From assembly GCA_006384855.1 (NCBI GenBank), contig VCJN01001036.1, positions 1-64,000 of the forward strand: a stretch of 64,000 nt of DNA, given 5' to 3'. This DNA is from Tetraselmis striata. Lineage: Eukaryota > Chlorophyta > Chlorodendrophyceae > Chlorodendrales > Chlorodendraceae. Position numbers and translations under genes: made by a program. Below, piece by piece: positions 1 through 57,739 of the stretch (positions are counted from its first letter, which is position 1; every line of letters starts with the position of its first letter). Below the pieces are notes generated by a model that searched no databases, had not been told where the DNA came from, and saw nothing but the letters and a program-made list of their open reading frames with translations.

Positions 1-3000
1 ATCCGCGTGGGAACCGGTAGTAAGTGTTGTTGTGTGCGCACATCGTGACAACATTACACGGTGGCAATTGCAATTAGCGGTGGATAATGTGAAGGCGTTT
101 TCGAAATCCACGGAGAATGAGGCGGTGCTGGCGGAGTGCATTGGCGGTGCATAGAATAGCGTGTTGCTGGGGGTTTGGCTGCATCGGACGCCGTATTCCC
201 ATGCATCCATCCGGCACGGAATGTCCGGTTTTTACACATTTGGGTGCGAATATAGTGTGTATATTACGCGTCTTTTACGCCGGGTGGATGGGCATCCGGC
301 GTCCGATGCACCCCAAATCTCACCAACACGCTACTCTACGCACCGCCAATGCACTCCGCCAGCCCCGCCTCTTTCCGCGCGCGTCCTACGTTGCGTTGTG
401 CATATATACATACGTACATGTACTGCTCCGAAACCAGCCCACATGTCTTTTACGCCGGGTGGATGGGCATCCGACGTCCGATGCACCCCAATTATTTGCA
501 GCACGCTACTCTATGCACCGCCAATGCAACTCCGGCAAGCCCCACCTCATCCTCGTGGGAACCGGTAGTAAGTGTTGTTGTGTGCGCACATCGTGACAAC
601 ATTACACGATGGCAATTGCATTTAGCGGTGGATAATGTGAAGGCGTTTTCGAAAATCCACGGAGAAATGAAGGCGGTGCTGGCGGAGTGCATTGGCGGTG
701 CATAGAATAGCGTGTTGCTGGGGTTTTGACTGCAATCGGGACCGCCGTTATTCCCATGCATCCATTCGGCACGGAATGTCCTGTTTTGATTCACACATTT
801 GTGTGTGAATATAGTGTGAATATTACGCGTCTTTTACGCCCGGGTGGATGGGCATCCCGCGTTCCGATGCATCCCAATTATTTGCAGCACGCTTCGCTAT
901 GCACCGCCAATGCACTCCGCAAGCCCCACCTCCATCCGCCGTGGGAACCGGTAGTAAGTGTTGTTGTGTGCGCACATCGTGACAAACATTACACGGTGGC
1001 AATTGCAATTAGCGGTGGATAATGTGAAGGCGTTTTCGGAAATCCACGGAGAATGAGGGCGGTGCTGGCAGGAGTGCATTTGGCGGTGCATAGAATAGCG
1101 TGTTGCTGGGGGTTTTGGCTGCCATCTGGAACGCCGTATTCCCCATGCATACCATTCCGGCACGTGAATGTCCGGTTTTTTACACATTTGGGTTGCGATA
1201 TAGTGTGTATATACGCGCTTTTACGGCCGGGTGGATGGGCATCCGGCCGTCCGATGCACCCCAAAATCTCACCAAACACGCCTACTCTAACGCACCGCCA
1301 ATGCACTCCGCCAGCCCCGGCCTCTTTCCGCGCGCGTCCTCGTTGCGTTGTCATATATACATACGTACATGTACTGCTCCGAAACCAGCCACATGTCTTT
1401 TAACGAGGGCGGGTGGATGGGCATCCGACCGTCCGATGCACCCCAATTATTTGCAGCACGCTACTCTATGCACGCCAATGCACTCCGCAAGCCCCGCCTC
1501 CATCCGCGTGGGAACCGGTAAGTAAGTGTTGTTGTGTGCGCACATCGTGACAACATTACACGATGGCAATTGCATTTAGCGGTGGATAATGTGAAGGCGT
1601 TTTCGAAATCCACGGAGAATGAGGCGGTGCTGGCGGAGTGCATTGGCGGTGCATAGAATAGCGTGTTGCTGGGGTTTTGACTGCATCGGACGCCGTATTC
1701 CATGCATCCATCCGGCACGGAATGTCCTGTTTTGATTCACACATTTGTGTGTGAATATAGTGTGAATATTACGCGTCTTTTACGCCGGGTGGATGGGCAT
1801 CCCGCGTCCGATGCATCCCAATTATTTGCAGCACGCTTCGCTATGCACCGCCAATGCACTCCGCAAGCCCCACCTCCATCCGCGTGGGAACCGGTAGTAA
1901 GTGTTGTTGTGTGCGCACATCGTGACAACATTACACGGTGGCAATTGCAATTAGCGGTGGATAATGTGAAGGCGTTTTCGAAAATCCACGGAGAATGAGG
2001 CGGTGCTGGCGGAAGTGCATTGGCGGTGCATAGAATAGCGTGTTGCTGGGGGGTTTTGGCTGCATCGGACGCCGTATTCCCATGCATCCATCCGGCACGG
2101 AATGTCCGGTTTTCACACATTTGTGTGTGAATATAGTGTGAATATTACGCGTCTTTTACGCCGGGTGGATGGGCATCCCGCGTCCGATGCATCCCAATTA
2201 TTTGCAGCACGCTTCGCTATGCACCGCCAATGCACTCCGCAAGCCCCACCTCCATCCGCGTGGGAACCGGTAGTAAGTGTTGTTGTGTGCGCACATCGTG
2301 ACAACATTACACGGTGGCAATTGCAATTAGCGGTGGATAATGTGAAGGCGTTTTCGAAATCCACGGAGAATGAGGCGGTGCTGGCGGAGTGCATTGGCGG
2401 TGCATAGAATAGCGTGTTGCTGGGGGTTTGGCTGCATCGGACGCCGTATTCCCATGCATCCATCCGGCACGGAATGTCCGGTTTTTACACATTTGGGTGC
2501 GAATATAGTGTGTATATTACGCGTCTTTTACGCCGGGTGGATGGGCATCCGGCGTCCGATGCACCCCAAATCTCACCAACACGCTACTCTACGCACCGCC
2601 AATGCACTCCGCCAGCCCCGCCTCTTTCCGCGCGCGTCCTACGTTGCGTTGTGCATATATACATACGTACATGTACTGCTCCGAAACCAGCCCACCTGTC
2701 TTTTACGCCGGGTGGATGGGCATCCGACGTCCGATGCACCCCAATTATTTGCAGCACGCTACTCTATGCACCGCCAATGCACTCCGCAAGCCCCGCCTCC
2801 ATCCGCGTGGGAACCGGTAGTAAGTGTTGTTGTGTGCGCACATCGTGACAACATTACACGATGGCAATTGCATTTAGCGGTGGATAATGTGAAGGCGTTT
2901 TCGAAATCCACGGAGAATGAGGCGGTGCTGGCGGAGTGCATTGGCGGTGCATAGAATAGCGTGTTGCTGGGGTTTTGACTGCATCGGACGCCGTATTCCC

Positions 3001-6000
3001 ATGCATCCATCCGGCACGGAATGTCCTGTTTTGATTCACACATTTGTGTGTGAATATAGTGTGAATATTACGCGTCTTTTACGCCGGGTGGATGGGCATC
3101 CCGCGTCCGATGCATCCCAATTATTTGCAGCACGCTTCGCTATGCACCGCCAATGCACTCCGCAAGCCCCACCTCCATCCGCGTGGGAACCGGTAGTAAG
3201 TGTTGTTGTGTGCGCACATCGTGACAACATTACACGGTGGCAATTGCAATTAGCGGTGGATAATTTGAAGGCGTTTTCGAAATCCACGGAGAATGAGGCG
3301 GTGCTGGCGGAGTGCATTGGCGGTGCATAGAATAGCGTGTTGCTGGGGGTTTTGGCTGCATCGGACGCCGTATTCCCATGCATCCATCCGGCACGGAATG
3401 TCCGGTTTTTACACATTTGTGTGTGAATATAGTGTGAATATTACGCGTCTTTTACGCCGGGTGGATGGGCATCCCGCGTCCGATGCATCCCAATTATTTG
3501 CAGCACGCTTCGCTATGCACCGCCAATGCACTCCGCAAGCCCCACCTCCATCCGCGTGGGAACCGGTAGTAAGTGTTGTTGTGTGCGCACATCGTGACAA
3601 CATTACACGGTGGCAATTGCAATTAGCGGTGGATAATGTGAAGGCGTTTTCGAAATCCACGGAGAATGAGGCGGTGCTGGCGGAGTGCATTGGCGGTGCA
3701 TAGAATAGCGTGTTGCTGGGGGTTTGGCTGCATCGGACGCCGTATTCCCATGCATCCATCCGGCACGGAATGTCCGGTTTTTACACATTTGGGTGCGAAT
3801 ATAGTGTGTATATTACGCGTCTTTTACGCCGGGTGGATGGGCATCCGGCGTCCGATGCATCCCAATTATTTGCAGCACGCTTCGCTATGCACCGCCAATG
3901 CACTCCGCAAGCCCCACCTCCATCCGCGTGGGAACCGGTAGTAAGTGTTGTTGTGTGCGCACATCGTGACAACATTACACGGTGGCAATTGCAATTAGCG
4001 GTGGATAATGTGAAGGCGTTTTCGAAATCCACGGAGAATGAGGCGGTGCTGGCGGAGTGCATTGGCGGTGCATAGAATAGCGTGTTGCTGGGGGTTTGGC
4101 TGCATCGGACGCCGTATTCCCATCCATCCGGCACGGAATGCCCGGGTTTCACACATTGGGTGCGAATATAGTGTGTATATTACGCGTCTTTTACGCCGGG
4201 TGGTCGGGCTTCGGGCGTCTGATGCACCCCGAATCTCACCAACACGCTACTCTACGCACCGCCAATGCACTCCGCCAGCCCCGCCTCTTTCCGCGCGCGT
4301 CCTACGTTGCGTTGTGCATATATACATACGTACATGTACTGCTCCGAAACCAGCCCACATGTCTTTTACGCCGGGTGGATGGGCATCCGGCGTCCGATGC
4401 ACCCCAAATCTCACCAACACGCTACTCTACGCACCGCCAATGCACTCCGCCAGCCCCGCCTCTTTCCGCGCGCGTCCTAACGTTGCGTTGTGCATATATA
4501 CATACGTACATGTACTGCTCCGAAACCAGCCCACATGTCTTTTACGCCTGGTGGATGGGCATCCGGCGTCCGATGCACCCCAATTATTTGCAGCACGCTA
4601 CTCTATGCACCGCCAATGCACTCCGATGACGCCGCGTGGGAACCGGTAGCAAGTGTTGTTGTGTGCGCACATCGTGACAACATTACACGGTGGCAATTGC
4701 AATTAGCGGTGGATAATGTGAAGGCGTTTTCGAAATCCACGGAGAATGAGGCGGTGCTGGCGGAGTGCATTGGCGGTGCATAGAATAGCGTGTTGCTGGG
4801 GTTTTGGCTGCATCGGACGCCGTATTCCCATGCATCCATCCGGCACGGAATGTCCGGTTTTCACACATTTGGGTGCGAATATAGTGTGTATATTACGCGT
4901 CTTTTACGCCGGGTGGATGGGCATCCGGCGTCCGATGCACCCCGAATCTCACCAACACGCTACTCTACGCACCGCCAATGCACTCCGCCAGCCCCGCCTC
5001 TATCCGCGCGCGTCCCACGTTGCGTTGTGCATATGTACATACGTACATGTACTGCTCCGAAACCAGCCCACATGTCTTTTACGCCGGGTGGATGGGCATC
5101 CGGCGTCCGATGCATCCCAATTATTTGCAGCACGCTACTCTATGCACCGCCAATGCACTCCGATGGCGCCGCGTGGGAACCGGTAGTAATTGTTGTTGTG
5201 TGCGCACATCGTGACAACATTACACGGTGGCAATTGCAATTAGCGGTGGACAATGTGAAGGCGTTTTCGAAATCCACGGAGAATGAGGCGGTGCTGGCGG
5301 AGTGCATTGGCGGTGCATAGAATAGCGTGTTGCTGGGGTTTTGGCTGCATCGGACGCCGTATTCCCATCCATCCGGCACGGAATGCCCGGGTTTCACACA
5401 TTTGGGTGCGAATATAGTGTGTATATTACGCGTCTTTTACGCCGGGTGGTCGGGCTTCGGGCGTCTGATGCACCCCGAATCTCACCAACACGCTACTCTA
5501 CGCACCGCCAATGCACTCCGCCAGCCCCGCCTCTTTCCGCGCGCGTCCTACGTTGCGTTGTGCATATATACATACGTACATGTACTGCTCCGAAACCAGC
5601 CCACATGTCTTTTACGCCTGGTGGATGGGCATCCGGCGTCCGATGCACCCCAATTATTTGCAGCACGCTACTCTATGCACCGCCAATGCACTCCGATGAC
5701 GCCGCGTGGGAACCGGTAACAAGTGTTGTTGTGTGCGCACATCGTGACAACATTACACGGTGGCAATTGCAATTAGCGGTGAATAATGTGAAGGCGTTTT
5801 CAAAATCGACGGAGAATGAGGCGGTGCTGGCGGAATGCATTGACAGTGCATAGAATAGCGTGTTGCTGGGGGTTTGACTGCATCGGACGCCGTATTCCCA
5901 TCCATCCGGCACGGAATGTCCGGTTTTGATTCACACATTTGTGTGTGAATACAATGTGAATATTACGCGTCTTTTACGCCGGGTGGATTGGCATCCCGCG

Positions 6001-9000
6001 TCCGATGCATCCCAATTATTTGCAGCACGCTACTCTATGCACCGCCAATGCACTCCGCAAGCCCCGCCTCCATCCGCGTGGGAACCCGATATTAAGTGTT
6101 GTTGTGTGCGCACATCGTGACAACATTACACGGTGGCAATTGCAATTAGCGGTGGATAATGTGAAGGCGTTTTCGAAATCCACGGAGAATGAGGCGGTGC
6201 TAACGGAGTGCATTGGCGGTGCATAGAATAGCGTGTTGATGGGGGTTTGGCTGCATCGGACGCCGTATTCCCATGCATCCATCCGGCATGGAATGTCCGG
6301 TTTTTACACATTTGGGTGCGAATATAGTGTGTATATTACGCGTCTTTTACGCCGGGTGGATGGGCATCCGGCGTCCGATGCACCCCGAATCTCACCAACA
6401 CGCTACTCTACGCACCGCCAATGCACTCCGCCAGCCCCGCCTCTATCCGCGCGCGTCCCACGTTGCGTTGTGCATATGTACATACGTACATGTACTGCTC
6501 CGAAACCAGCCCACATGTCTTTTTACGCCGGGTGGATGGGCATCCGGCGTCCGATGCATCCCAATTATTTGCAGCACGCTACTCTATGCACCGCCAATGC
6601 ACTCCGATGACGCCGCGTGGGAACCGGTAGCAAGTGTTGTTGTGTGCGCACATCGTGACAACATTACACGGTGGCAATTGCAATTAGCGGTGGATAATGT
6701 GAAGGCGTTTTCGAAATCCACGGAGAATGAGGCGGTGCTGGCGGAGTGCATTGGCGGTGCATAGAATAGCGTGTTGCTGGGGTTTTGGCTGCATCGGACG
6801 CCGTATTCCCATGCATCCATCCGGCACGGAATGTCCGGTTTTCACACATTTGGGTGCGAATATAGTGTGTATATTACGCGTCTTTTACGCCGGGTGGATG
6901 GGCATCCGGCGTCCGATGCACCCCGAATCTCACCAACACGCTACTCTACGCACCGCCAATGCACTCCGCCAGCCCCGCCTCTATCCGCGCGCGTCCCACG
7001 TTGCGTTGTGCATATGTACATACGTACATGTACTGCTCCGAAACCAGCCCACATGTCTTTTACGCCGGGTGGATGGGCATCCGGCGTCCGATGCATCCCA
7101 ATTATTTGCAGCACGCTACTCTATGCACCGCCAATGCACTCCGATGGCGCCGCGTGGGAACCGGTAGTAATTGTTGTTGTGTGCGCACATCGTGACAACA
7201 TTACACGGTGGCAATTGCAATTAGCGGTGGACAATGTGAAGGCGTTTTCGAAATCCACGGAGAATGAGGCGGTGCTGGCGGAGTGCATTGGCGGTGCATA
7301 GAATAGCGTGTTGCTGGGGGTTTGGCTGCATCGGACGCCGTATTCCCATCCATCCGGCACGGAATGCCCGGGTTTCACACATTTGGGTGCGAATATAGTG
7401 TGTATATTACGCGTCTTTTACGCCGGGTGGTCGGGCTTCGGGCGTCTGATGCACCCCGAATCTCACCAACACGCTACTCTACGCACCGCCAATGCACTCC
7501 GCCAGCCCCGCCTCTTTCCGCGCGCGTCCTACGTTGCGTTGTGCATATATACATACGTACATGTACTGCTCCGAAACCAGCCCACATGTCTTTTACGCCT
7601 GGTGGATGGGCATCCGACGTCCGATGCACCCCAATTATTTGCAGCACGCTACTCTATGCACCGCCAATGCACTCCGATGACGCCGCGTGGGAACCGGTAA
7701 CAAGTGTTGTTGTGTGCGCACATCGTGACAACATTACACGGTGGCAATTGCAATTAGCGGTGAATAATGTGAAGGCGTTTTCAAAATCGACGGAGAATGA
7801 GGCGGTGCTGGCGGAATGCATTGACAGTGCATAGAATAGCGTGTTGCTGGGGGTTTGACTGCATCGGACGCCGTATTCCCATCCATCCGGCACGGAATGT
7901 CCGGTTTTGATTCACACATTTGTGTGTGAATACAATGTGAATATTACGCGTCTTTTACGCCGGGTGGATTGGCATCCGGCGTCCGATGCACCCCAATTAT
8001 TTGCAGCACGCTACTCTATGCACCGCCAATGCACTCCGCAAGCCCCGCCTCCATCCGCGTGGGAACCGGTAGTAAGTGTTGTTGTGTGCGCACATCGTGA
8101 CAACATTACACGGTGGCAATTGCAATTAGCGGTGAATAATGTGAAGGCGTTTTCAAAATCGACGGAGAATGAGGCGGTGCTGGCGGAATGCATTGACAGT
8201 GCATAGAATAGCGTGTTGCTGGGGGTTTGACTGCATCGGACGCCGTATTCCCATCCATCCGGCACGGAATGTCCGGTTTTGATTCACACATTTGTGTGTG
8301 AATACAATGTGAATATTACGCGTCTTTTACGCCGGGTGGATTGGCATCCCGCGTCCGATGCATCCCAATTATTTGCAGCACGCTACTCTATGCACCGCCA
8401 ATGCACTCCGCAAGCCCCGCCTCCATCCGCGTGGGAACCCGATAGTAAGTGTTGTTGTGTGCGCACATCGTGACAACATTACACGGTGGCAATTGCAATT
8501 AGCGGTGGATAATGTGAAGGCGTTTTCGAAATCCACGGAGAATGAGGCGGTGCTGACGGAGTGCATTGGCGGTGCATAGAATAGCGTGTTGATGGGGGTT
8601 TGGCTGCATCGGACGCCGTATTCCCATGCATCCATCCGGCATGGAATGTCCGGTTTTTACACATTTGGGTGCGAATATAGTGTGTATATTACGCGTCTTT
8701 TACGCCGGGTGGATGGGCATCCGGCGTCCGATGCACCCCGAATCTCACCAACACGCTACTCTACGCACCGCCAATGCACTCCGCCAGCCCCGCCTCTATC
8801 CGCGCGCGTCCCACGTTGCGTTGTGCATATGTACATACGTACATGTACTGCTCCGAAACCAGCCCACATGTCTTTTACGCCGGGTGGATGGGCATCCGGC
8901 GTCCGATGCACCCCAATTATTTGCAGCACGCTACTCTATGCACCGCCAATGCACTCCGATGGCGCCGCGTGGGAACCGGTAGCAAGTGTTGTTGTGTGCG

Positions 9001-12000
9001 CACATCGTGACAACATTACACGGTGGCAATTGCAATTAGCGGTGGATAATGTGAAGGCGTTTTCGAAATCCACGGAGAATGAGGCGGTGCTGGCGGAGTG
9101 CATTGGCGGTGCATAGAATAGCGTGTTGCTGGGGTTTTGGCTGCATCGGACGCCGTATTCCCATGCATCCATCCGGCACGGAATGTCCGGTTTTCACACA
9201 TTTGGGTGCGAATATAGTGTGTATATTACGCGTCTTTTACGCCGGGTGGATGGGCATCCGGCGTCCGATGCACCCCGAATCTCACCAACACGCTACTCTA
9301 TGCACCGCCAATGCACTCCGCCAGCCCCGCCTCTATCCGCGCGCGTCCCACGTTGCGTTGTGCATATGTACATACGTACATGTACTGCTCCGAAACCAGC
9401 CCACATGTCTTTTACGCCGGGTGGATGGGCATCCGCCGTCCGATGCATCCCAATTATTTGCAGCACGCTACTCTATGCACCGCCAATGCACTCCGATGGC
9501 GCCGCGTGGGAACTGGTAGTAATTGTTGTTGTGTGCGCACATCGTGACAACATTACACGGTGGCAATTGCAATTAGCGGTGGACAATGTGAAGGCGTTTT
9601 CGAAATCCACGGAGAATGAGGCGGTGCTGGCGGAGTGCATTGGCGGTGCATAGAATAGCGTGTTGCTGGGGGTTTGGCTGCATCGGACGCCGTATTCCCA
9701 TCCATCCGGCACGGAATGCCCGGGTTTCACACATTTGGGTGCGAATATAGTGTGTATATTACGCGTCTTTTACGCAGGGTGGTCGGGCTTCGGGCGTCTG
9801 ATGCACCCCGAATCTCACCAACACGCTACTCTACGCACCGCCAATGCACTCCGCCAGCCCCGCCTCTTTCCGCGCGCGTCCTACGTTGCGTTGTGCATAT
9901 ATACATACGTACATGTACTGCTCCGAAATCAGCCCACATGTCTTTTACGCCTGGTGGATGGGCATCCGGCGTCCGATGCACCCCAATTATTTGCAGCACG
10001 CTACTCTATGCACCGCCAATGCATTCCGATGACGCCGCGTGGGAACCGGTAGCAAGTGTTGTTGTGTGCGCACATCGTGACAACATTACACGGTGGCAAT
10101 TGCAATTAGCGGTGGATAATGTGAAGGCGTTTTCGAAATCCACGGAGAATGAGGCGGTGCTGGCGGAGTGCATTGGCGGTGCATAGAATAGCGTGTTGCT
10201 GGGGTTTTGGCTGCATCGGACGCCGTATTCCCATGCATCCATCCGGCACGGAATGTCCGGTTTTCACACATTTGGGTGCGAATATAGTGTGTATATTACG
10301 CGTCTTTTACGCCGGGTGGATGGGCATCCGGCGTCCGATGCACCCCGAATCTCACCAACACGCTACTCTACGCACCGCCAATGCACTCCGCCAGCCCCGC
10401 CTCTATCCGCGCGCGTCCCACGTTGCGTTGTGCATATGTACATACGTACATGTACTGCTCCGAAACCAGCCCACATGTCTTTTACGCCGGGTGGATGGGC
10501 ATCCCGCGTCCGATGCATCCCAATTATTTGCAGCACGCTTCGCTATGCACCGCCAATGCACTCCGATGGCGCCGCGTGGGAACCGGTAGTAATTGTTGTT
10601 GTGTGCGCACATCGTGACAACATTACACGGTGGCAATTGCAATTAGCGGTGGACAATGTGAAGGCGTTTTCGAAATCCACGGAGAATGAGGCGGTGCTGG
10701 CGGAGTGCATTGGCGGTGCATAGAATAGCGTGTTGCTGGGGGTTTGGCTGCATCGGACGCCGTATTCCCATCCATCCGGCACGGAATGCCCGGGTTTCAC
10801 ACATTTGGGTGCGAATATAGTGTGTATATTACGCGTCTTTTACGCCGGGTGGTCGGGCTTCGGGCGTCTGATGCACCCCGAATCTCACCAACACGCTACT
10901 CTACGCACCGCCAATGCACTCCGCCAGCCCCGCCTCTTTCCGCGCGCGTCCTACGTTGCGTTGTGCATATATACATACGTACATGTACTGCTCCGAAACC
11001 AGCCCACATGTCTTTTACGCCTGGTGGATGGGCATCCGGCGTCCGATGCACCCCAATTATTTGCAGCACGCTACTCTATGCACCGCCAATGCACTCCGAT
11101 GACGCCGCGTGGGAACCGGTAACAAGTGTTGTTGTGTGCGCACATCGTGACAACATTACACGGTGGCAATTGCAATTAGCGGTGAATAATGTGAAGGCGT
11201 TTTCAAAATCGACGGAGAATGAGGCGGTGCTGGCGGAATGCATTGACAGTGCATAGAATAGCGTGTTGCTGGGGGTTTGACTGCATCGGACGCCGTATTC
11301 CCATCCATCCGGCACGGAATGTCCGGTTTTGATTCACACATTTGTGTGTGAATACAATGTGAATATTACGCGTCTTTTACGCCGGGTGGATTGGCATCCC
11401 GCGTCCGATGCATCCCAATTATTTGCAGCACGCTACTCTATGCACCGCCAATGCACTCCGCAAGCCCCGCCTCCATCCGCGTGGGAACCCGATAGTAAGT
11501 GTTGTTGTGTGCGCACATCGTGACAACATTACACGGTGGCAATTGCAATTAGCGGTGGATAATGTGAAGGCGTTTTCGAAATCCACGGAGAATGAGGCGG
11601 TGCTGACGGAGTGCATTGGCGGTGCATAGAATAGCGTGTTGATGGGGGTTTGGCTGCATCGGACGCCGTATTCCCATGCATCCATCCGGCATGGAATGTC
11701 CGGTTTTTACACATTTGGGTGCGAATATAGTGTGTATATTACGCGTCTTTTACGCCGGGTGGATGGGCATCCGGCGTCCGATGCACCCCGAATCTCACCA
11801 ACACGCTACTCTACGCACCGCCAATGCACTCCGCCAGCCCCGCCTCTATCCGCGCGCGTCCCACGTTGCGTTGTGCATATGTACATACGTACATGTACTG
11901 CTCCGAAACCAGCCCACATGTCTTTTACGCCGGGTGGATGGGCATCCGCCGTCCGATGCATCCCAATTATTTGCAGCACGCTACTCTATGCACCGCCAAT

Positions 12001-20760: not shown

Positions 20761-21023
20761 GTTTGGCTGCCATGTTTTGCCAAAGAGTGCTCACGTTACA
20801 TAAATATTCGCGAGGGGGAGGGCGGGGGCAGGCAGCGGTTTGCCGAAGAATGATTGAATTACAATATTCGCGACAGCTGCCATCGGGGGATGTGGCCCCG
20901 GGGGGGGGGGGGGGGGGGGTGCGGGGGCGGGGGGACCACGCCCGCCCCGCCCCCCCCCGCCCCCCTCGCCGCCAGCCGCTCCCGCCTGGGGGGGGGGGGG
21001 GGGGGGGGTAAAGGGGCCGGGGG

Positions 21024-21764: not shown

Positions 21765-22029
21765 GTATTGTCAAGAGCTAGTCGGTGCGGCATTGTGTCG
21801 GTGTAATTTCGCAATGTTTATTGTTGAAGTAGCACGGCGTAATGGATACGGCGAGTGAATCCGGGATAATGTGTGCGACGAATGTGCGCGCGCAGCGGTG
21901 TGCGGCGGTGTGCGGCGGTGTGCGGCGGTGTGCACCGATGTTAATATAGTGTGAATATTATATCGGCCGTAGACGATCAGGTCTGGCAGCACCGCCCGTG
22001 CTTGTAAATAAGCGACAATGGGTCTAGTC

Positions 22030-23654: not shown

Positions 23655-24268
23655 AATGGGGGGGGGGGGGGGGGGGGTGGGGGGGGGGGGGATGTGGCGG
23701 CGGGGCATCCACTCACACATACCCCAGCGATGCATGACAAATATTACATGCCGTGGCGGGTCGGCGGGCCGACCCGGCGGGGGGGGGGGGGGGGGGGGGG
23801 GCGTCTATTCAACTACACGTGCGACAGTGTCGTTTCGTGGAGCAGTATATGTGCCCGGCCTCATTTATACCGCCCCCTACCTGCGCTGCATGGTCTACCC
23901 CTAAGAATTACTTAGCACAAACCGTCATTACTTAATAGGAACCTAGCACAGCCAGGCTTATATGCCCGCTTTCCCGATCAACTTCTACGCACTTTCCGTC
24001 CCTCAACCGCCGGACATGGGGGTTAAGCCGCCAGCCTCGGCAGTTGCTTAGCCAGACTTGGCATCCCGTACCGTGTCCATGGCTTCGCAGCTCTGCCGCT
24101 GGCACACGCCGAGTCCGGCGCTTGCTGCCGCGGGGTTGCGCACGCATGCACGCACGGTAATACGCCGCCGACGCCGCCACGCTTACTTCCACCACCTTCG
24201 CCAGCCGCAGCTTCGCACGCCTTTCCGCCGACATACGAAACGCACGAATCCCCCCCCGTCCCCGCGTC
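23655..24268 (+). other. Transposon body between satellite and ORF-Z, two G tracts
   Basis: Holds two long G homopolymers (from about 23657 and 23780) and a segment with the small palindrome GGGTCGGCGGGCCGACCC. The sequence recurs at 31063-31585 and, inverted, at 57655-58310. Minus-strand frames here are conserved between copies, but I could not identify a product. Confidence 0.6.
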
Positions 24269-25164
24269 ATGTATATTATATTCGAGGCGACTATGCGGGG
24301 CGCAGCACACGCCGCGGCGTGGGTCGGCGGAGCGACAGGCGGCGGGAGCCCTAATGGCCGGGCAGTATCCACACCCACACAGGCACCGCCGCTCACCTCC
24401 GACGCGGATGAACCGCCTCCCAAAGGAAACATGCCGGTTGGTGGTAAGCCCAGCAGGCGTGCGTGGGGTGCCGGCGCCGGTACTGGTGCGACGGAGCTGT
24501 CGCGTCAGGAACCGCACCGCATGTGGAGCAACACATGGCGGTGCCGGCCCCACCTATGTCTAGGGCCACCTCCTCACAACACCCCGCCACGACGGCGTCG
24601 GCCACCGCCGACGGCGCCGTTGCGGGGGGGGACGCCCTGCCAGGCGACGATGATGCGCCTGGTGCGCCGCGTCAGGAGGCAGAGGAGGCCGTGGTCGAGG
24701 CGACTGATCGGGCTGAGGGGGTTGTCGAGGCGAGCGAGGCTGCGCTCGCGCCACCCGCCCCGCAGCCACCTGCGGGACATGCCGACTTGCTCGTCGCCAT
24801 GTTGACCGGAGCACTACGAGCAGTGGCGGGAGGCGGCCACATGCACTATCATGTGCGTGTCCTGGCCGGACGCCCGTCATGCGTGGACTGCGGCCAACGG
24901 ACGGACTGGGAGTGTTGCTGCGACGGCACTCCGGCTTTGTGCGGCCCCGAGTACCCATGCATGGCGACCCATCAGCGGGCAGTCCCCTGCCCGACCACGG
25001 CCACGAAGAGGGCGGAGTTCCGCCATGTCAGGGACGCGTTCCACGACGCGACTCGCGCCGCCGTGTGTGAGGCTTCCGAGAAGGCACGCGCGGCTGGTAG
25101 GGTGCGCAGGGTGAGGCGGCGGACGGCCCAGGAGCTGAAGGAGAGCGAGACATGCCGTCAGTGA
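24269..25164 (+). pseudogene. ORF-Z copy 1: Cys-rich zinc-ribbon transposon protein
   Basis: The frame opens with MYIIFEATMRG (24269) and is followed, after one frame change near 24460, by a 233-codon frame ending at the TGA after ETCRQ (25164). The N-terminal half is low complexity (Pro/Ala/Thr). The C-terminal part carries a compact Cys cluster, CVDCGQRTDWECCC, then LC and YPCMATH, then a charged helical tail rich in Arg. The cluster recalls the Cys-rich C-terminal finger of PiggyBac-type transposases, but no DDE domain is visible. Copies 2 (31586-32510) and 3 (inverted, 56805-57654) keep the same Cys pattern, so selection for the + frame is plausible. It may be an accessory DNA-binding protein of the transposon. 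Confidence 0.5.
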
Positions 25165-25207
25165 GGTCGGGCGCAATGTCATTGGGTGGGGCACACGGAC
25201 GTGTAAC

Positions 25208-25515
25208 ACTTGCACTTTGCGCGTACTGCTGGGTTACATCCAGGCTGCGTCACACTATGCAACCGGAAAGGCTGCGTTGCTACTGCAAACAATGCGACGC
25301 CTCACTCTGTAGCAACCGCTGCCGCGCCTATCCCACAGCCGCTGCCCCGGCCGCCCCCCCCCCCCCCCCGCGCGGGATCCCCGCCATCAGCAGCTTGCAC
25401 TTGCACTTTGCGCGTACTGCTGGGTTACATCCAGGCGGCGTCACACCGGAAAGGCTGCGTTGCCACTGCAAACGATGCTACGCCTCACTCGGTAGCAACC
25501 GCTGCCCCGCCCATC
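25208..25515 (+). repeat. Direct duplication inside copy 1
   Basis: A segment containing TTGCACTTTGCGCGTACTGC, GGAAAGGCTGCGTTGC and TAGCAACCGCTGCC occurs twice, at about 25208-25332 and 25397-25512. The second copy lacks a few bases after CGTCACAC. Copy 2 (about 32556-32690) and copy 3 (about 55790-56060, inverted) have a single version. A poly-C tract lies between the two. Confidence 0.75.
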
Positions 25516-25559
25516 CCACTCGGGATGCTGAGAGCAGCTAAAGGGCACCGGGGGCGGGG

Positions 25560-26110
25560 CAAGAGGGAGCAGGGCCAATGATTGTGGAAGAGCGGGGACC
25601 CGCTTGCATGCCATCGTATTATATCTTGCACAATATCTGTTGCTGCACTCATATCTCACATCACTAGCTTAGCTATAGTGATTCCCCCCCCCCCCCCCCC
25701 CCCCCCGCACTGCGTACGCACAAGCCTGGGTATACGCATCAACTGCCCGCCGGGATGAGAAACTGGTATTGGTAGTGTGTCTGTGGGGTGGAGGGGGGGG
25801 GGCAAAAGAGCTGCCAATTGCTGCCAAGCTGGTGCGTTACATTGGGGCAGGCGCTGGGCAGACAATTGGGGCTCGCTTCAGAGCATTGTCTAGTGCCTAT
25901 GCGGCTGCGCCGCCTCCGCCGCATGCAGACTCTGCGGGCTCACCAGCACCGCCACCTCAGTCATGCGGCCCTGCATCCCGCAGCCCGCCGCCGTCAGCCA
26001 GATCAGAGGTATCCAGAAGCCAGTGCTGGGGTTGTTGCGGCATGACCGCATAGTTTTCAGCGGCTGCCGTCCACAGCTTGTAATGCATCCCTTTCCGCCG
26101 ATTCCGCTGT
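25560..26110 (+). other. Copy 1 interior, no gene recognised
   Basis: Contains a long C tract at 25684-25706, a short G tract near 25793, and no open frame with a recognisable family. It has no clear counterpart in copies 2 and 3. Confidence 0.4.
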
Positions 26111-28382
26111 ATGCGCTGTCTTAAAGCCGCGCTGCCCCGGCCGCCGCGCCTTGGCGCCGCGCTGCCCCGGCCGCCGCGCCTTGGCGCCGCGCTGCCCCGG
26201 CCGCCGCGCCTTGGCGCCGCGCTGCCCCGGCCGCCGCGCCTTGGCGCCGCGCTGCCCCGGCCGCCGCGCCTTGGCGCCGCGCTGCCCCGGCCGCCGCGCC
26301 TTGGCGCCGCGCTGCCCCGGCCGCCGCGCCTTGGCGCCGCGCTGCCCCGGCCGCCGCGCCTTGGCGCCGCGCTGCCCCGGCCGCCGCGCCTTGGCGCCGC
26401 GCTGCCCCGGCCGCCGCGCCTTGGCGCCGCGCTGCCCCGGCCGCCGCGCCTTGGCGCCGCGCTGCCCCGGCCGCCGCGCCTTGGCGCCGCGCTGCCCCGG
26501 CCGCCGCGCCTTGGCGCCGCGCTGCCCCGGCCGCCGCCGTCTTGGCGCCGCGCTGCCCCGGCCGCCGCCGTCTTGGCGCCGCGCTGCCCCGGCCGCCGCT
26601 GTCTTGGCGCCGCGCTGCCCCGGCCGCCGCGCCTTGGCGCCGCGCTGCCCCGGCCGCCGCGCCTTGGCGCCGCGCTGCCCCGGCCGCCGCGCCTTGGCGC
26701 CGCGCTGCCCCGGCCGCCGCGCCTTGGCGCCGCGCTGCCCCGGCCGCCGCCCCTTGGCGCCGCGCTGCCCCGGCCGCCGCGCCTTGGCGCCGCGCTGCCC
26801 CGGCCGCCGCGCCTTGGCGCCGCGCTGCCCCGGCCGCCGCGCCTTGGCGCCGCGCTGCCCCGGCCGCGCTGCCCCGGCCGCCGCGCCTTGGCGCCGCGCG
26901 GGGTATCGAGTCCTCCCCTCCCTAGTGAGCGCGTCCACCTGCGCCTTGCGCTCGGGGCCGTCCTCCTCCGTCACCACATTCTGCAACCCCCACCGCGTGA
27001 CGAACCACGCAGCTCCTTGCATGCGCTTGTACATGTGCCCAAGCACCGCCTAGGGACGCGAAGCTCCTTCTCGGTCATGATCGCCTTCACCCCGGCCTCC
27101 TCGAGCAGCGGACCGGCGTTAAGAATGGAAAACGTTTCCATGTGGTGCAAGCAGTCCTCCATGACCCAGCCGGACTGCACCGTCACCTTGCCTGACCCTG
27201 CAGTCATGGAGGGGAATGCCGTCACGCCCACGCCCACGCCCACGCCCACGCCCGGGGGGGGGGTGGGGGGGGGGTTACCTTTCGATTCTTGGACACTGCA
27301 AACGAAGGGCGCAACCCGCGTTCAAATAAAGTTGCTGGGTATCGGGACTAAAGCCTGGCGCCGGTCTTCCTGCTTCATAGCTCGGAATCCAATGTGGCCC
27401 TGCACGGTGACAAATTTCCTCCATAAGTCCCTTCCCAAGCCAAAAAAAAACAGGTGGAACGGCGCGAGGGGGAAGAGGTTGATCATGCTGACATAGCCCA
27501 GGACCACATGCACATGGCACACGCCATGGCAGCCAGTGTTCTGCTTGGCCTCCGCCAGCCGGGTTGTGTTGAACGCACGCCGGGCAAGGTGCGTGATTCA
27601 CTGGACAAGTCATCGCCTTGATGGACGGTTACCAAGCGAGCATCCCCGTCCGCATCCACAGGGGGGTGCTCCTGGGCAGCCGCCATAGCCTCCACAACCT
27701 GCCACGCCGACCGGGCGGGTGCGTGTGATTCCATACAACCGCAGTTGAGTGGTGCCACCAGCACGCAGGCCGGGCCCACTCACCTCTGAACGCAGAAGGT
27801 CCACAATGTCACCGTCCTCGAAAACAGCGCGCCACTGGGTCGCCCCGCCGTAGTCCTCCAACACCCACTCGGTAACGACGCCGGTTATCACGCCGTAGTG
27901 CCATACTCCCCGGAACTTCTTGGCGATGACCTTCATGTAGAAGTCGCCGGGATCGCCTTTCCATATCACGCCCTCATCGCGGGTTCGACGCCCGCCGGCG
28001 GCCACGCAGGCGCGTCGATGTCCATACCGTCTTCGCCAACGGGGTCCTCCCCCACGCCCATCACATCGTCCACCTTCGAGCCGCCGTCGTCCGAGACCGG
28101 CGCCCGCGGGCCGTTTCCGACGGCTGCAGCTACTCCTGCTGCCGCGCTTGTTGCTGCTGTTGCTGCTGCTGCTGCTGCCGCCCCTGCTGGTGCTGCTTGT
28201 GATAAGGCGGCCTTGCGGCGCAACTTAGCCGCACGCTTCAACGAGTGGCTACAGTTCGGGTATTTCCGGAAGTGCCGCTCTCGCGCCGTCCTTTCACTAC
28301 TACCCGTCACGATGCCGTGGCAGTGCTTGCATGTGTACACGCCATCCTTCGACACACTCGCTATCCATCCCTTTGCCGGCAT
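26057..28382 (-). pseudogene. Transposase copy 1 (BED finger, Tudor-like, Tnp2-like), rearranged
   Basis: Reading leftwards from an ATG at 28382 (MPAKGWIASVSKDGVYTC): a BED-type zinc finger (CKHC ... HFRKYPNC); a Lys/Arg, Ala-rich linker encoded by GCT/GCA repeats; a Tudor/Agenet-like segment (27793-27990, YGVITGVV, FEDGDIVDL) that ends at a good splice donor (AGAG|GTGAGT, 27788-27793); an acidic linker; and a segment with GLGRDLWRKFV (about 27420) and GHMYKRMQGAAWFVTRWGL (about 27000), which corresponds to the conserved transposase core of copy 3. After TREGRTRYPARR the frame runs straight into the 30-bp minisatellite, so the normal C-terminus is missing. At least one frame change lies between the linker and the Tudor-like part: copy 2 is open there. 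The gene is probably dead as a transposase. Confidence 0.6.
26120..26899 (+). repeat. 30-bp GC minisatellite, about 26 copies
   Basis: The unit contains GCGCTGCCCCGGCCGCCGCG followed by CCTTGGCGCC, repeated with almost no change. A few units vary (GCCGTC at 26536-26600, CCCC at 26751), and one unit is half deleted near 26865. The unit length is divisible by three, so frames stay open on both strands across the whole array (ALPRPPRLGA on +, RPGQRGAKAR on -). It is absent from copies 2 and 3. Confidence 0.97.
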
Positions 28383-28932
28383 GCCTGCTGCCGCGCGCGG
28401 GGGGCGGGGGGGGGGTTGAGAGTTGGGGTGGATGTAACCCACCACCGGCAGGCAACACAGATGCGAGTGCGCGGCTGTCCGCGCTTGATTCAACGGTGAG
28501 CGGCGGTGACCGTGAGGCGACCCCGTACTTCATGCGCGTGCTGGGGCGTTACACAATCATCAGCAGTTAGGGCGGCTGCATTAAAACGCGCACCTACGAA
28601 CACCACCTACCGCCTACCACCTACCGTACCACCTACATCCGCCCACACCTCCGCCCGTCGTGCCGCACATCGCGGCACACCGCGGCGATGTGCAGCGATG
28701 TGCAGCGAGTACTTGCAGCCGCCTGTACTTAGCCCGGGTACTCCGCGTCGGCGGGCGACACGCGAGCCCGCGTGCGCATATCAATTTGATGAAATTATGG
28801 AAACGAGAAATTCATATAGTACTTTACAGGTCGCGCGCGATAGTCGTCGCTACTTGGTATGAAATCCACGTCCCTCGTCCGTCCCGTATCGTCCCCGTAT
28901 GTCGTCGTTCGTCACCAGTAGGGCACATTTAC
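28383..28932 (+). other. Right subterminal region of copy 1
   Basis: No gene. It has short CCACCTAC repeats (28598-28640), GATGTGCAGCGA repeats, and an AT-richer stretch (ATATCAATTTGATGAAATTA). The same sequence ends copy 2 (34480-35210), where part of it is duplicated. Confidence 0.6.
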
Positions 28933-28954
28933 GTCACATCTGAATCTCACAGTG
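28933..28954 (+). repeat. Right TIR of transposon copy 1
   Basis: Ends ATCTGAATCTCACAGTG and is the exact reverse complement of 20308-20329. It is followed by CGC (28955-28957), the second half of the target duplication, and then by satellite in register with the left flank. Confidence 0.92.
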
Positions 28955-31062
28955 CGCCTCTTTCCGCGCGCGTCCTACGTTGCGTTGTGCATATATACAT
29001 ACGTACATGTACTGCTCCGAAACCAGCCCACATGTGTTTTACGCCTGGTGGATGGGCATCCGGCGTCCGATGCACCCCAATTATTTGCAGCACGCTACTC
29101 TATGCACCGCCAATGCACTCCGATGACGCCGCGTGGGAACCGGTAGCAAGTGTTGTTGTGTGCGCACATCGTGACAACATTACACGGTGGCAATTGCAAT
29201 TAGCGGTGAATAATGTGAAGGCGTTTTCAAAATCGACGGAGAATGAGGCGGTGCTGGCGGAATGCATTGGCGGTGCATAGAATAGCGTGTTGCTGGGGTT
29301 TTGACTGCATCGGACGCCGTATTCCCATCCATCCGGCACGGAATGTCCGGTTTTGATTCACACATTTGTGTGTGAATACAATGTGAATATTACGCGTCTT
29401 TTACGCCGGGTGGATTGGCATCCCGCGTCCGATGCATCCCAATTATTTGCAGCACGCTACTCTATGCACCGCCAATGCACTCCGCAAGCCCCGCCTCCAT
29501 CCGCGTGGGAACCCGATAGTAATTGTTGTTGTGTGCGCACATCGTGACAACATTACACGGTGGCAATTGCAATTAGCGGTGGATAATGTGAAGGCGTTTT
29601 CGAAATCCACGGAGAATGAGGCGGTGCTGGCGGAGTGCATTGGCGGTGCATAGAATAGCGTGTTGATGGGGGTTTGGCTGCATCGGACGCCGTATTCCCA
29701 TGCATCCATCCGGCATGGAATGTCCGGTTTTTACACATTTGGGTGCGAATATAGTGTGTATATTACGCGTCTTTTACGCCGGGTGGTCGGGCTTCCGGCG
29801 TCCGATGCACCCCGAATCTCACCAACACGCTACTCTACGCACCGCCAATGCACTCCGCCAGCCCCGCCTCTTTCCGCGCGCGTCCTACGTTGCGTTGTGC
29901 ATATATACATACGTACATGTACTGCTCCGAAACCAGCCCACATGTCTTTTACGCCTGGTGGATGGGCATCCGGCGTCCGATGCACCCCAATTATTTGCAG
30001 CACGCTACTCTATGCACCGCCAATGCACTCCGATGACGCCGCGTGGGAACCGGTAGCAAGTGTTGTTGTGTGCGCACATCGTGACAACATTACACGGTGG
30101 CAATTGCAATTAGCGGTGAATAATGTGAAGGCGTTTTCAAAATCGACGGAGAATGAGGCGGTGCTAGCGGAATGCATTGACAGTGCATAGAATAGCGTGT
30201 TGCTGGGGTTTTGACTGCATCGGACGCCGTATTCCCATCCATCCGGCACGGAATGTCCGGTTTTGATTCACACATTTGTGTGTGAATACAATGTGAATAT
30301 TACGCGTCTTTTACGCCGGGTGGATTGGCATCCCGCGTCCGATGCACCCCAATTATTTGCAGCACGCTACTCTATGCACCGCCAATGCACTCCGCAAGCC
30401 CCGCCTCCATCCGCGTGGGAACCCGGTAGTAATTGTTGTTGTGTGCGCACATCGTGACAACATTACACGGTGGCAATTGCAATTAGCGGTGGATAATGTG
30501 AAGGCGTTTTCGAAATCCACGGAGAATGAGGCGGTGCTGGCGGAGTGCATTGGCGGTGCATAGAATAGCGTGTTGCTGGGGGTTTGGCTGCATCGGACGC
30601 CGTATTCCCATGCATCCATCCGGCACGGAATGTCCGGTTTTGATTCACACATTTGAGTGCGAATATTGTGTGAATATTACGCGTCTTTTACGCCGGGTGG
30701 TCGGGCTTCCGGCGTCTGATGCACCCCGAATCTCACCAACACGCTACTCTACGCACCGCCAATGCACTCCGCCAGCCCCGCCTCTTTCCGCGCGCGTCCC
30801 ACGTTGCATTGTGTATATATACATCCGTACATGTACTGATCCGAAACCAGCCCACATGTCTTTTATGCAGGGTGGATGGGCATCCAACCCACATGTCCGA
30901 TGCACCCCAATTATTTGGACCACGTTACTCTACGCACCGCCAACGCACTCCGCCAGCCCCGCCTCTTTCCGCGCAAGTCATACGTTCCATTGTATGTATA
31001 TACATACGTACATGTACTACTGCTCTGAAACCAACCCAAACTTAATGAGTGCACAAGTGTAA
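28955..31062 (+). repeat. Satellite array, continuation after copy 1
   Basis: Continues in the same unit and register as 20307, so the array was split by the insertion. Units run to about 30650 with normal identity. The last ~400 bp are more diverged (an extra CCACATGT at 30888, GGACCACG in place of GCAGCACG). The block ends at AACTTAATGAGTGCACAAG and a G tract, the same exit point as in copies 1 and 3. Confidence 0.93.
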
Positions 31063-31585
31063 ATGGGGGGGGGGGGGGCGCGGGGCATACACTCACACAT
31101 ACTTCGGTCATGCATGACAGATATTACAAGCCGTGGCGGGTCGGCGGGCCGACCCGGCGGGTCGACCCGGCGGGGGGGGGGGGGTTCTATTTAACTACAC
31201 GTGCGGCAGTGTCGTTTCGTGGAGCAGTATGTGTGCCCGGCCTCATTTATACCGCCCCCTACCTGCGCTGCATGGTCCACCCCTACGAATTATATAGCAC
31301 AAACCGCCATTACTTTATAGGAACCTAGCACAGCCATGCTTATATGCCCGCTTTGGCGATCAACTTCTACGCACTTCCCGTCCCTCAGCCGCCGGACATG
31401 GGGGTTAAGCCGCCAGCGTCGGCAGTTGCTTAGCAACACTTGGCATCCCGTACCGTGTTCATGGCTTCGCAGCCCTGCCGCCGGCACACGCTTACTTCCA
31501 CCACCTTCGCCAGCCGCAGCTTCGCACGCCGTTCCGCCGACATACGAAACGCACGAATCCACCCCCCCCCCCCGGTCCCCGCGTC

Positions 31586-32510
31586 ATGTATAATATATTC
31601 GAGGCGACTATGCGGGGCGCAACACACGCCGCGGCGTGGGTCGGCGGAGCGGCGGGCGGCGGGAGCCCTAATGGCCGGGCAGTATCCACACCCACACCGG
31701 CACCGCCGCTCACCTCCGACGCGGATGAACCGCCTCCCAAAGGAAACATGCCGGTTGGTGGTAAGCGCAGCAGGCGTGGGGTGCCGGTGCCGGTACCTGT
31801 GCGACGGAGCTGTCGCGTCATGAACCGCACCGCAACCGCAACCGCAACCACACCGCATGTGGAGCAACACATGGCGATGCCGGCCCCACCTATGTCTAGG
31901 GCCACCTCCTCACAGCACCCCGCCACGACGGCGTCGGCCACCGCCGACGGCGCCGTTGCGGGGGGGGGGGGGGGGGGACCCCCTGCCATGCGACGATGAT
32001 GCGCCTGATGCGCCACGTTAGGAGGCGGAGGAGGCCGTGATTGAGGCGACTGATAGGGCTGAGGGGGTTGTCGAGGCGAGCGAGGCTGCGCTCGCGCCAT
32101 CCGCCCCGCAGCCACATGCGGGACATGCCGACTTGCTCGTCGCCATGTTGACCGGAGGACTACGAGCAGTGGCGGGAGGCGCCCACATGCACTATCATGT
32201 GCGTGTCCTGGCCGGACGCCCGTCATGCGTGGACTGCGGCCAACGGACGGACTAGGAGTGTTGCTGCGACGGCACCCCGGCTTTGTGCGGCCCCAAGTAC
32301 CCATGCATGGCGACCCATCAGCGGGCAGTCCCCTGCCCGACCACGGCCGCGGTGAGGGCTGAGTTCCGCCATGTCAGGGACGCGTTCCACGACGCGACTC
32401 GCGCCGCCGTGTGTGAGGCTTCCGCGAAGGCACGCGCGGCTGGTAAGGTGCGCAGGGTGAGGCGGCGGACGGCCCGGGAGATGATGGAGAGCGTGACATG
32501 CCGGCAGTGA
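31586..32510 (+). pseudogene. ORF-Z copy 2: Cys-rich zinc-ribbon ORF, broken
   Basis: Opens with MYNIFEATMRG and stays in one frame through the Pro/Ala/Thr-rich half to about 31960, where a G tract breaks the frame. The Cys-rich half follows at 32037-32255, with a TAG directly after CVDCGQRTD where copy 1 has Trp. The remaining part (PKYPCMATH, the Arg-rich tail and TCRQ stop) lies at 32283-32510. The reading frame of the first half is cleaner than in copy 1, which supports MYNIFEATMRG as the true start region. Confidence 0.5.
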
Positions 32511-32600
32511 GGTCGGGCGCAATGATATTGGGTGGGGCACACGGGCGTGTAACACTTGCACTTTGCGCGTACGGTTGGGTTACATCTAGGCGGCGTCACA

Positions 32601-34459
32601 CTATGCAACCGGAAAGGCTGCGGTGCTACTGCAAACGGTGCTACGCCTCACTCGGTAGCAACCGCTGCCCCGCCTATCCCACAACTGCTGCCCGCCCGCC
32701 CCCCCCCCCCCCCCTCGCGCACCGTCATGCGACCTCGCATGGATCCCCGCCACCACCAGCTCCCCAGCGTCGACGCCCAAGTCGGCAGCATTCGCGGAGG
32801 ACATGTGGGCAGGGGCCACGAGAACAGCCACCTTGCGGATGCCCGGACCGTCTAGGAGGACAAGGGCCTCCTCCCCGCCGGAACCACCGCCACCGCCCGG
32901 CACTCTCCACAAGTCCAAGCCCACGGCAGTGTGGGCTCGTTCCAGCGTCCACACCGTACACAATGCAGCCCTATGGGCCGCGCGCTTGCATGGCTGTCGT
33001 CCGAGTCAGCCCCCGGCGGGGGCGGCGGCGTGGCGAGGTAGAAGTGTTGAGCTCGCGCGACCATGGTGGTGTACTTGGCGTCTTCGCGCTCCGCCAGCAG
33101 GCATGCGGATAAACTTGTCGGCATTGCACTCCGGGCAGTGCTGGTCGGGGAGGTTCGCCCATCCGCCAGCCTTCCCGGGCGCCCCGCTGAACGCCACGCA
33201 CCCCTGGGGCACATGTGCCGGACATATCTGGATGTATTAGGCACCTACATGCATCGGGAGGCGAGGAGCGTGAGGGGCCTGACACCCCAAGAAGGTCGCG
33301 TCAAGCACGCACCCAGGCAGACATCCCGGCCGTACCCGCAGGCACTTCCGCATCGCCTTGTGGCTGCGTGGCACGGCCATCCCACCCCAGGTGAAGCCGG
33401 CGGGCATGATGTCATGCAGCAGCTGCCAGTCGATGTCATCGGAGTTGTTGGAGTTCTTGCTCTTCACATGGGCCGAGCACTTCATGACTGCAAACGTGAG
33501 GGCATCCGTGTCGGACCCCGGCACATCAGAAGACTCCCACGCCCGGAGGCGCGCCGCCTCCTCCTCCTCCTCCTCATCGCTTGTCCACCCGGCGCCAGCC
33601 GCGTCCCCCCCCCCCCCCCCCCTTCCCAGCCCTCCTCTTCGGATTCACTGGACTGGTCATCGCCTTCAAGGACGGTTGCCAAGCGAGCCTCCCCGTCCGC
33701 ATCCACAGGGAGGTGCTCCTGGGCAGCCGCCATAGCCTCCACAACCTGCCACGCCGACCGGGCGGATGCGTGTGAATCCATACAACCGCAGGTGAGTGGT
33801 GCCACCAGCACACAGGCCGGGCCCACTCACCTCTGAACGCATAAGGTCCACGGTGTCACCGTCCTCGAAAACAGCGCGCCACCGGGTCACCCCGCCGTAG
33901 TCCTCCAACACCCACTCGGTAACGACGCCGGTTATCACGCCGTAGTGCCATAATCCCCGGAACTTCTTGGCGATGATCTTCATGTAGAAGTCACCGGGAT
34001 CGCCTTGCCGTATCACGCCCTCATCGGCGGCTTCCACGCCCGCCGGCGGCCACGCAGGCGCGTCGATGTCCATACCGTCTTCGCCAACGGGGTCCTCCCC
34101 CACACCCATCACATCGTCCTCCTTCGAGCCGCCGTCGTCCGAGACCGGCGCCGGCGGGCAGTTTCCGACGGCTGCAGCTACTCCTGCTGACGCCCCTGCT
34201 GCTGCTAGGCTGCTGCTGCTGCTGCCGCTGCCGCCCATGCTGCTGCTGCTTGTGATAAGGCGGCCTTGCGGCGCAACTTAGCCGCACGCTTCAACGAGTG
34301 GCTACAGTTCGGGTGTTTTAGGAAGTGCCGCTCTCGCGCCGTCTTATCACTACTACCAGTCATCCAGCCCTGCGACACGCCATCCTGCGCATCTTGTACA
34401 CGCCATCATGCGACACACTCGATATCCATCCCTTTCCCGGCATGCCTGCTGCCGCGCGC
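32601..34459 (-). pseudogene. Transposase copy 2: Tudor-like and Tnp2-like N-terminal half
   Basis: From an ATG near 34444 (MPGKGW) the BED finger is degenerate: the first CxxC is gone. The linker and Tudor-like segment are open in one frame (33666-34238, with EAADEGVIRQGDPGDFY, YGVITGVV, FEDGDTVDL), then the donor GTGAGT. Later parts show DWQLLHDIMPAGF and VPRSHKAMRKCL (33300-33460), then CPQGCVAF ... CPECNADKF (33110-33215). This spacing of a leucine-rich 'lP.s...a.k.l' block, a C-x3-C and a CPxC is typical of the N-terminal half of Tnp2/CACTA transposases. A Gly-rich acidic part with ALVLLDGPGIRKVAVLVAP follows at 32790-32860. The conserved C-terminal core seen in copy 3 is absent. Confidence 0.6.
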
Positions 34460-34775
34460 GGGGGGCGGGGGGGGGGGGGGGGGGGGGGCGGGAGGGGGCT
34501 GAGAGTTGGGGGTGGATGTAACCCACCACCGGCAGGTAGCAGAGATGCGAGTGCGCGGCTGTCCGCACTTGGTTCAGCGGTGAGCGGCGGTGACCGTAAG
34601 GCGACCCCCTACATGCGCGTGCTGGGGCGTTACACAATCATCAGCAGTTAGGGCGGCTGCATTTAAACGCGCACCTACGAACACCACCTACCGCCTTCCA
34701 CCTACCGTACCACCTACATCCGCCCACACCTCCGCCCGTCGTGCCGCACATCGCCGCACAACGCGGGGTCATCGA

Positions 34776-35143
34776 GGTGCAACGATGTGCAGCGAGTACG
34801 TGCAGCCGCCTGTACTTAACCTGGGTGCTCCGCGTCGGCGCGCGACACGCGAGCCCGCGTGCGCATATCAATTTGATGAAATTATCGAAACGAGAAATTC
34901 ATATAGTACTTTACAGGTCGCGCGAGATAGTCGTCGCTACTCGGTATGAAATCTCACAGCAACGATGTGCAGCGATGTGCAACGAATACGTGCAGCCGCC
35001 TGTACTTAGCCCGAGTCCTCCGCGTCGGCGCGCGACACGCGAGCCCGCGTGCACATATCAATTTGATGAATATTATGGAAACGAGAAATTCATATAGTAC
35101 TTTACACGTTGCGCGCGATAGTCGTCGCTACTCGGTATGAAAT
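34776..35143 (+). repeat. Tandem duplication (~184 bp) in the right end of copy 2
   Basis: Two copies (about 34776-34951 and 34960-35143) of the block GATGTGCAGCGA ... TCGTCGCTACTCGGTATGAAAT. Copy 1 has a single version (about 28690-28865). The copies differ by a few substitutions and one A insertion (GATGAATATTATGG). Confidence 0.88.
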
Positions 35144-35210
35144 CCACGTCCCTCGTCCGTCCCGTATCGTCCCCGTATGTCGTCGTTCGTCACCAGTAGG
35201 GGACATTTAC

Positions 35211-35232
35211 GTCACATCTGAATCTCACAGTG
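35211..35232 (+). repeat. Right TIR of transposon copy 2
   Basis: Identical over 22 bp to the right TIR of copy 1, ending ATCTGAATCTCACAGTG. The next bases, GTCGTTGCG, are unrelated to the satellite, so this marks the true outer end. Confidence 0.9.
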
Positions 35233-57654: not shown

Positions 57655-57739
57655 GGCGCGGGGACGGGGAGGGGGGGGGATTCGTGCGTTTCGTAGGTCG
57701 GCGGAACGGCGTGCGAAGCTGCAGCCGCTGGTAGTGGTG

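Follow-up and report, generated by a model that had tools for sequence, protein, structure and literature searches.

A satellite DNA as a probable constitutive and expandable internal segment of a CACTA-like transposon family in Tetraselmis striata

The satellite DNA described here is likely, with a probability of roughly 0.85, to be a constitutive internal segment of a CACTA-like family of cut-and-paste DNA transposons in Tetraselmis striata, by which it is spread and within which it expands in place. Spread would follow from transposition, because the satellite lies between the transposon ends. The order of parts in a copy of the element is left end, left module, satellite (some long monomers, L, and one terminal short monomer, S), an exit motif with a G tract, right module and right end, with the right module carrying a putative transposase-like gene antisense to the element. 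Ordinary copies are about 8–9 kb long and have termini, target duplications and fixed inner junctions; such copies would have moved by transposition. How satellites arrive at new chromosomal sites and first expand is an old open question. About a thousand places in this genome carry the same repeat at the same junction, in arrays that range from a single unit to over 20 kb, and this range of places and sizes could make unit growth, the size limits of transposition and the birth of higher-order repeats directly measurable. On this reading, satellite DNA can travel through a genome as part of a transposon and expand within it.

The window, meaning the whole stretch of DNA that was analysed, comprises bases 1–64,000 of contig C823 (91,393 bp); genome searches covered the 224-Mb assembly of 2,903 contigs. 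Within the window the exit motif AACTTAATGAGTGCACAAG is found at 23632(+), 31039(+) and 58287(-), three matches against 0.02 expected in shuffled sequence, and the end motif CACTGTGAG at 20308(+), 28946(-) and 35224(-), three matches against 0.38 expected. These positions belong to three copies of the element (Table 1). Copy 1 is nested inside an S monomer of a larger array, with CGC as the target-site duplication, and rejoining its flanks yields an S monomer of roughly normal length.

Array lengths of 1.6 kb in copy 1, 1.1 kb in copy 3 and at least 22.4 kb in copy 2 had been reported in a preliminary description of this DNA, and they agree with the 1.59 kb, 1.07 kb and at least 22,388 bp measured here, the last figure running from the contig start to the exit with copy 1 and one duplication subtracted. 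By an anchor count, the copy 2 array contains 45 L and 32 S monomers in a recurring variant order. The right end of copy 2 had been placed at 35232, where the CACTGTGAG match at 35224(-) indeed puts it, and the distance of 4,194 bp between the exit and this point brings copy 2 to at least 26.58 kb, as against the earlier figure of at least 26.5 kb without copy 1. The same description held that one satellite lies between the left-end module and the same exit in all three copies. This stands for the exit, which is of one kind and present in each copy, and for a left module beside the satellite in copies 1 and 3, the only ones for which it is visible in the window. There are, however, two kinds of left junction, that of copy 1 (new type) and that of copy 3 (old type), and the canonical CACTGTGAG is absent from the left end of copy 3. 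The match of copy 3 to copy 1 also ends about 0.7 kb short of the right end. Because base 1 of the window is base 1 of the contig, the left end of copy 2 lies outside this contig, whose first 1.4 kb or so is rich in indels. Copy 2 appears to be a swollen copy of the element with its left side cut off by the assembly.

Table 1. Positions of the three element copies and of their parts in the window
Feature	Position	Strand	Remark
Copy 2 satellite array, first part, L and S monomers	1..20307	+	begins at contig edge
Example L monomer, 373 bp	14952..15324	+	imperfect palindrome over 300 bp
Example S monomer within array	15325..15499	+	joined back to L monomer
Copy 1, element inserted in array	20308..28954	+	CACTGTGAG ... 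CTCACAGTG; 3-bp duplication CGC
Copy 1 internal satellite	22040..23631	+	terminal S monomer starts at 23459
Copy 1 exit motif, then G tract	23632..23650	+	
Copy 1 transposase-like gene, incomplete pieces	26903..28061	-	antisense to element
Copy 2 satellite array, second part, reaching exit	28955..31038	+	
Copy 2 exit motif	31039..31057	+	
Copy 2 right module	31058..35232	+	terminates in CTCACAGTG at 35224-35232
Copy 2 transposase-like gene, incomplete pieces	32724..34109	-	antisense to element
Copy 3 right module, incomplete	54110..58286	-	
Copy 3 transposase-like gene, incomplete pieces	54267..55759	+	antisense to element
Copy 3 exit motif	58287..58305	-	
Copy 3 internal satellite	58306..59376	-	
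Copy 3 left module, old type	59377..63046	-	

That the satellite is internal to the transposon, as the preliminary description proposed, is borne out across the genome. The exit pattern is found at 1,065 places (up to 2 mismatches) and a pattern fusing the satellite end to the exit at 1,059 places (up to 3 mismatches), with no match for either reversed control; the near-equality of the two counts is only approximate because the mismatch limits differ. At all 30 exit loci inspected (L001–L030, taken in contig order from the 0-mismatch list and picked by likeness to the copy 1 repeat), the edge of an S monomer stands directly before the exit and L monomers stand before S, on the same strand. Both ends, CACTGTGAG and CTCACAGTG, together with identical 3-bp flanks, were found in nine of nine further copies, namely those with both ends among the top matches of the two end searches, as well as in copy 1.

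Terminal inverted repeats starting with CACT and a 3-bp target-site duplication, present in these nine copies and in copy 1, are features of CACTA (EnSpm) transposons. We call the element CACTA-like because its ends and the size of its duplication fit this superfamily and Pfam assigned no transposase. Specifically, no transposase family was returned by Pfam for the window pieces, nor Transposase_21 or its relatives at E values up to 1 for 30 homologs of up to 1024 aa. When the piece at 54628-55290 served as a protein query, 324 matches were obtained, and the 120 listed are all Tetraselmis striata models; the longer homologs, up to 1024 aa, are present in the algal protein set. A single PDB sequence matched the transposase-like protein (E 0.43), and the two AlphaFold models made were of low quality (mean pLDDT 47.0 and 36.9). 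The protein may resemble TNP2. In the three window copies the gene, read with its introns not worked out, is incomplete, and these copies therefore probably depend on protein made elsewhere.

In the arrays many monomers follow one another head to tail over kilobases, as expected of satellite DNA. The L monomers are mostly 357–377 bp (about 370 bp), with a few longer ones in the indel-rich start of the contig, and the terminal S monomer is about 175 bp. S corresponds to the first part of L followed by the edge that contacts the exit motif in ordinary copies. The L monomer matches its own complement at 64.7% over 300 bp, and its predicted single-strand DNA fold lies far below those of shuffled sequences (z -11.0). 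Mean identity among L monomers is 96.2% within copy 2 (150 pairs from 42 monomers, the first 1.5 kb omitted) and 98.1% within copy 1 (three monomers), but 93.8% between the two copies. Each element therefore retains a distinct subtype, and this holds even for an element nested in another. An L-core pattern was found at 8,612 places genome-wide, a figure that is not a monomer count because the arms of the palindrome differ by three letters and S carries one arm; we estimate the genome total at about 3–4 thousand L monomers.

The satellite had also been described as expandable, and the genome search for further copies supports this. Lengths from left junction to exit form a ladder with steps of about 370 bp. 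For the new type the rungs are 482 bp (one copy), about 856 bp (four), 1224 bp (13), 1595 bp (three) and 1963 bp (two), and for the old type about 702 bp (five), 1069 bp (three), 1446 bp (five), 1811 bp (two), 3294 bp (one) and 4141 bp (one). Phase concentration is 0.998 at 370 bp for the new type and 0.957 at 378 bp for the old type, against random 95% bounds of 0.54 and 0.63, respectively. A listed exit could be matched to 23 of the 49 new-type junctions and to 17 of the 28 old-type ones, and the ladder rests on these pairs. The junctions were drawn from the first 100 listed and lie on contigs of the exit list; the unpaired junctions may have an exit outside the 0-mismatch list. At up to 3 mismatches the left junction pattern occurs at 1,426 places, mixed with ordinary L monomers, and only the 0-mismatch list was used. 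Even there, two junctions (C30:180559 and C49:59605) sit inside arrays, and the internal variant of C49 (1,960 bp) is counted among the 23 new-type lengths.

The number of L monomers ranges from one to six among 40 bounded, non-duplicate copies (loci L001–L060). It differs in 44 of 125 pairs whose unique flanks are at least 99.5% identical, pairs that involve 19 copies and are not independent. Arrays of L monomers alone can be longer still: in C49 such an array starts at the exit and continues for 4.2 kb until the contig ends, and in C492 it begins no later than position 700 and reaches about 10.85 kb, with the right end of the element at 16223. The number of monomers would change in place by whole units, most simply by unequal exchange or replication slippage, a process that the palindromic form of the monomer could perhaps assist.

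Satellites inside CACTA elements are already known from plants. A precedent exists in the CACTA-like element Jozin of Chenopodium quinoa, where the authors describe a satellite array of 32.5 monomers of 171 bp (5.55 kb) within a 16.5-kb element; an array is present toward the 3′ end in four listed elements, and the authors propose spread by the transposon (PMC8978399). The likeness to Tetraselmis is a satellite array within a CACTA-like element. In quinoa, however, the satellite is called "captured" and reported for few elements (PMC8978399), whereas in Tetraselmis it occupies about a thousand places, varies along a measured unit ladder, reaches array lengths of 22 kb or more and includes a higher-order repeat in which the boundary monomer takes part. 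A second case is the satellite CficCl-61-40, which arose from the tnp2 region of a CACTA-like Jozin element, and the paper also cites Atenspm of Arabidopsis (PMC7320549). There, too, internal sequence of a CACTA-like element is tied to a major satellite, but the monomer derives from the transposase gene (PMC7320549), in contrast to the Tetraselmis L monomer, which has a fixed internal place and shows no substantial match to the other modules. In the oyster, Cg_HINE elements are described as non-autonomous Helentrons without target duplications, with central tandem repeats that are mostly short, the longest having 29 monomers (PMC7492417). In both cases a mobile element with many dispersed copies has tandem repeats as a permanent part of its centre; Cg_HINE nevertheless belongs to another transposon class, and the Tetraselmis element differs in its terminal inverted repeats, its 3-bp duplications and the greater length of its arrays. 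The 3-bp duplications do not fit Helentrons or HINEs, which are described as lacking a target-site duplication (PMC7492417). No title or abstract among the literature matches listed describes the element or the satellite in Tetraselmis. The novelty lies in the scale, in the ladder of array lengths between fixed junctions, in the higher-order repeat from a boundary monomer and in the green-algal host.

This higher-order repeat is recognised by a junction from S back to L, which is absent from the copy 1 array. The junction occurs at 856 places (control 0) that cluster in few contigs, as seen among the 100 places listed. The S-to-L search and a second search together list 18 contigs with the expanded L/S form. 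The array edge could be classified in 11 of these: seven (C30, C136, C142, C426, C575, C735 and C2279) have a correctly oriented left module or left junction adjoining the array, one (C2415) has the left module beyond unrecognised sequence, and three (C406, C574 and C2864) have something else before the array. In three of the seven (C426, C575 and C735) the exit is present as well. The C575 array is bounded on both sides by a left junction and an exit about 12.5 kb apart, and each of six samples taken from 8.2 to 13.9 kb proved to be satellite, always on one strand. In C136, satellite is seen from a left junction near 34786 up to 58460, a span of 23.6 kb sampled at nine exact S-to-L junctions plus two further samples. 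In C2415 about 10.8 kb separates the exit from the left module, and the single point read between them lies in unrecognised sequence. The nearest relative of copy 2 in the exit region is C2339 (96%), where satellite can be followed over 8 kb or more, counted from the exit. Since long arrays often reach contig ends, their lengths rest on the assembly, and among those looked at no copy with an array above 10 kb was found in full, from terminus to terminus.

In the long arrays the S monomers end in the same edge by which the satellite of ordinary copies meets the exit, and the L/S unit therefore looks element-derived. In one lineage an exchange would have joined the terminal S back to L, founding an L/S unit that would then have grown into arrays between ten and over twenty kb in length; the same S-to-L joint is found in separate copies, as would follow from a single founding exchange. 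Locus L054, however, has an internal S joint of another kind, which suggests a repeated origin of such joints. We tentatively propose, as a possibility rather than an expectation, that the transposon carries a satellite generator: after recombination of its boundary half-monomer into a higher-order unit, this L/S unit would amplify inside the element to tens of kilobases, and such copies would then move and seed large satellite blocks at new sites, some of them later rearranged (as in C574), perhaps supplying the heterochromatic satellite of the alga.

The long arrays could alternatively belong to an independent chromosomal satellite, a few monomers of which were captured once by the element, the arrays including that at 1-31038 having met the right part of an element by recombination between shared repeats. 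Several contigs speak for this. In C406 unrecognised sequence lies 0.7 kb before the array, with no recognisable left module, and in C2864 a weak match to the right module of another element precedes it. In C574 a new-type element lies at 114.5-117 kb before the array; satellite reappears at 122 kb. The satellite of this contig occupies the plus strand as far as 151.4 kb and, from 152.2 kb almost to the end of the contig, the minus strand, a flip that leaves no room for right modules between. C412 (31 kb) is satellite only, at the points seen. The L monomer, moreover, has just one match to the other modules of the element, of 18 bp (E 0.065). These four contigs may reflect nested insertions, truncations, rearrangements or satellite that escaped from the element. 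Against a chromosomal origin stand the seven of the 18 listed contigs in which a left module or junction adjoins the L/S array, the presence of both borders in C426, C575 and C735, and the exit-touching edge of the long-array S monomers. We regard this alternative as unlikely; C575 and C136 are taken as cases in which a long array belongs to an element.

The length of the copy 2 array could, in turn, be an artefact in which reads of several short-array copies were merged. The contig begins within the array, in indel-rich sequence, and the arrays of C49, C406 and C574 also run to contig ends. The monomers of copy 2 nevertheless form a subtype of their own, its S-to-L joints are absent from the copy 1 array and occur in few of the loci examined, and long L/S arrays are also found in contig interiors (C136 and C30), which makes a merged assembly very improbable. 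A further candidate is that the satellite is only a preferred landing site and its co-occurrence with the element external; copy 1 lies inside an array and the new-type element of C574 adjoins one. This candidate is contradicted by satellite lying inside the termini with fixed inner junctions, and by the finding of satellite in just one of 30 right flanks (300 bp), that of copy 1 in the window; we give it almost no weight. Three of the other 29 right flanks match other parts of the element.

Copy 1, the element nested in the satellite array of copy 2, contains a GC-rich minisatellite, and its transposase-like match ends at this repeat. Copy 2 has a direct duplication immediately internal to its right end, and an element copy on C547, another contig of the assembly, carries two right-end matches side by side, the second one diverged. 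The window also holds an additional left-end fragment of the same CACTA-like family; the family's remaining modules are absent from its sequence matches. A Pfam scan of pieces of the window placed a reverse-transcriptase domain (RVT_1) close to copy 3, on the right side where that copy is truncated.

Coordinates of additional features (in the window unless a contig is named)
Feature	Position	Strand	Detail
Indel-rich monomers	about 500-1460		contig start
Minisatellite	26126-26867		30-bp unit, 24.6 units, 98% match
Direct duplication	34770-35147		188 bp, 91.5%
Left-end fragment	37609-37957	-	
RVT_1	51033-51791		E 9.6e-09
Strand reversal, contig C574	about 151.4-152.2 kb		inside 0.8 kb

Reading of the sequence revealed indel-rich satellite monomers that look like uncorrected read error and are therefore poorly suited to divergence estimates. 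The satellite array of C574 reverses strand, perhaps in connection with the palindromic monomer.
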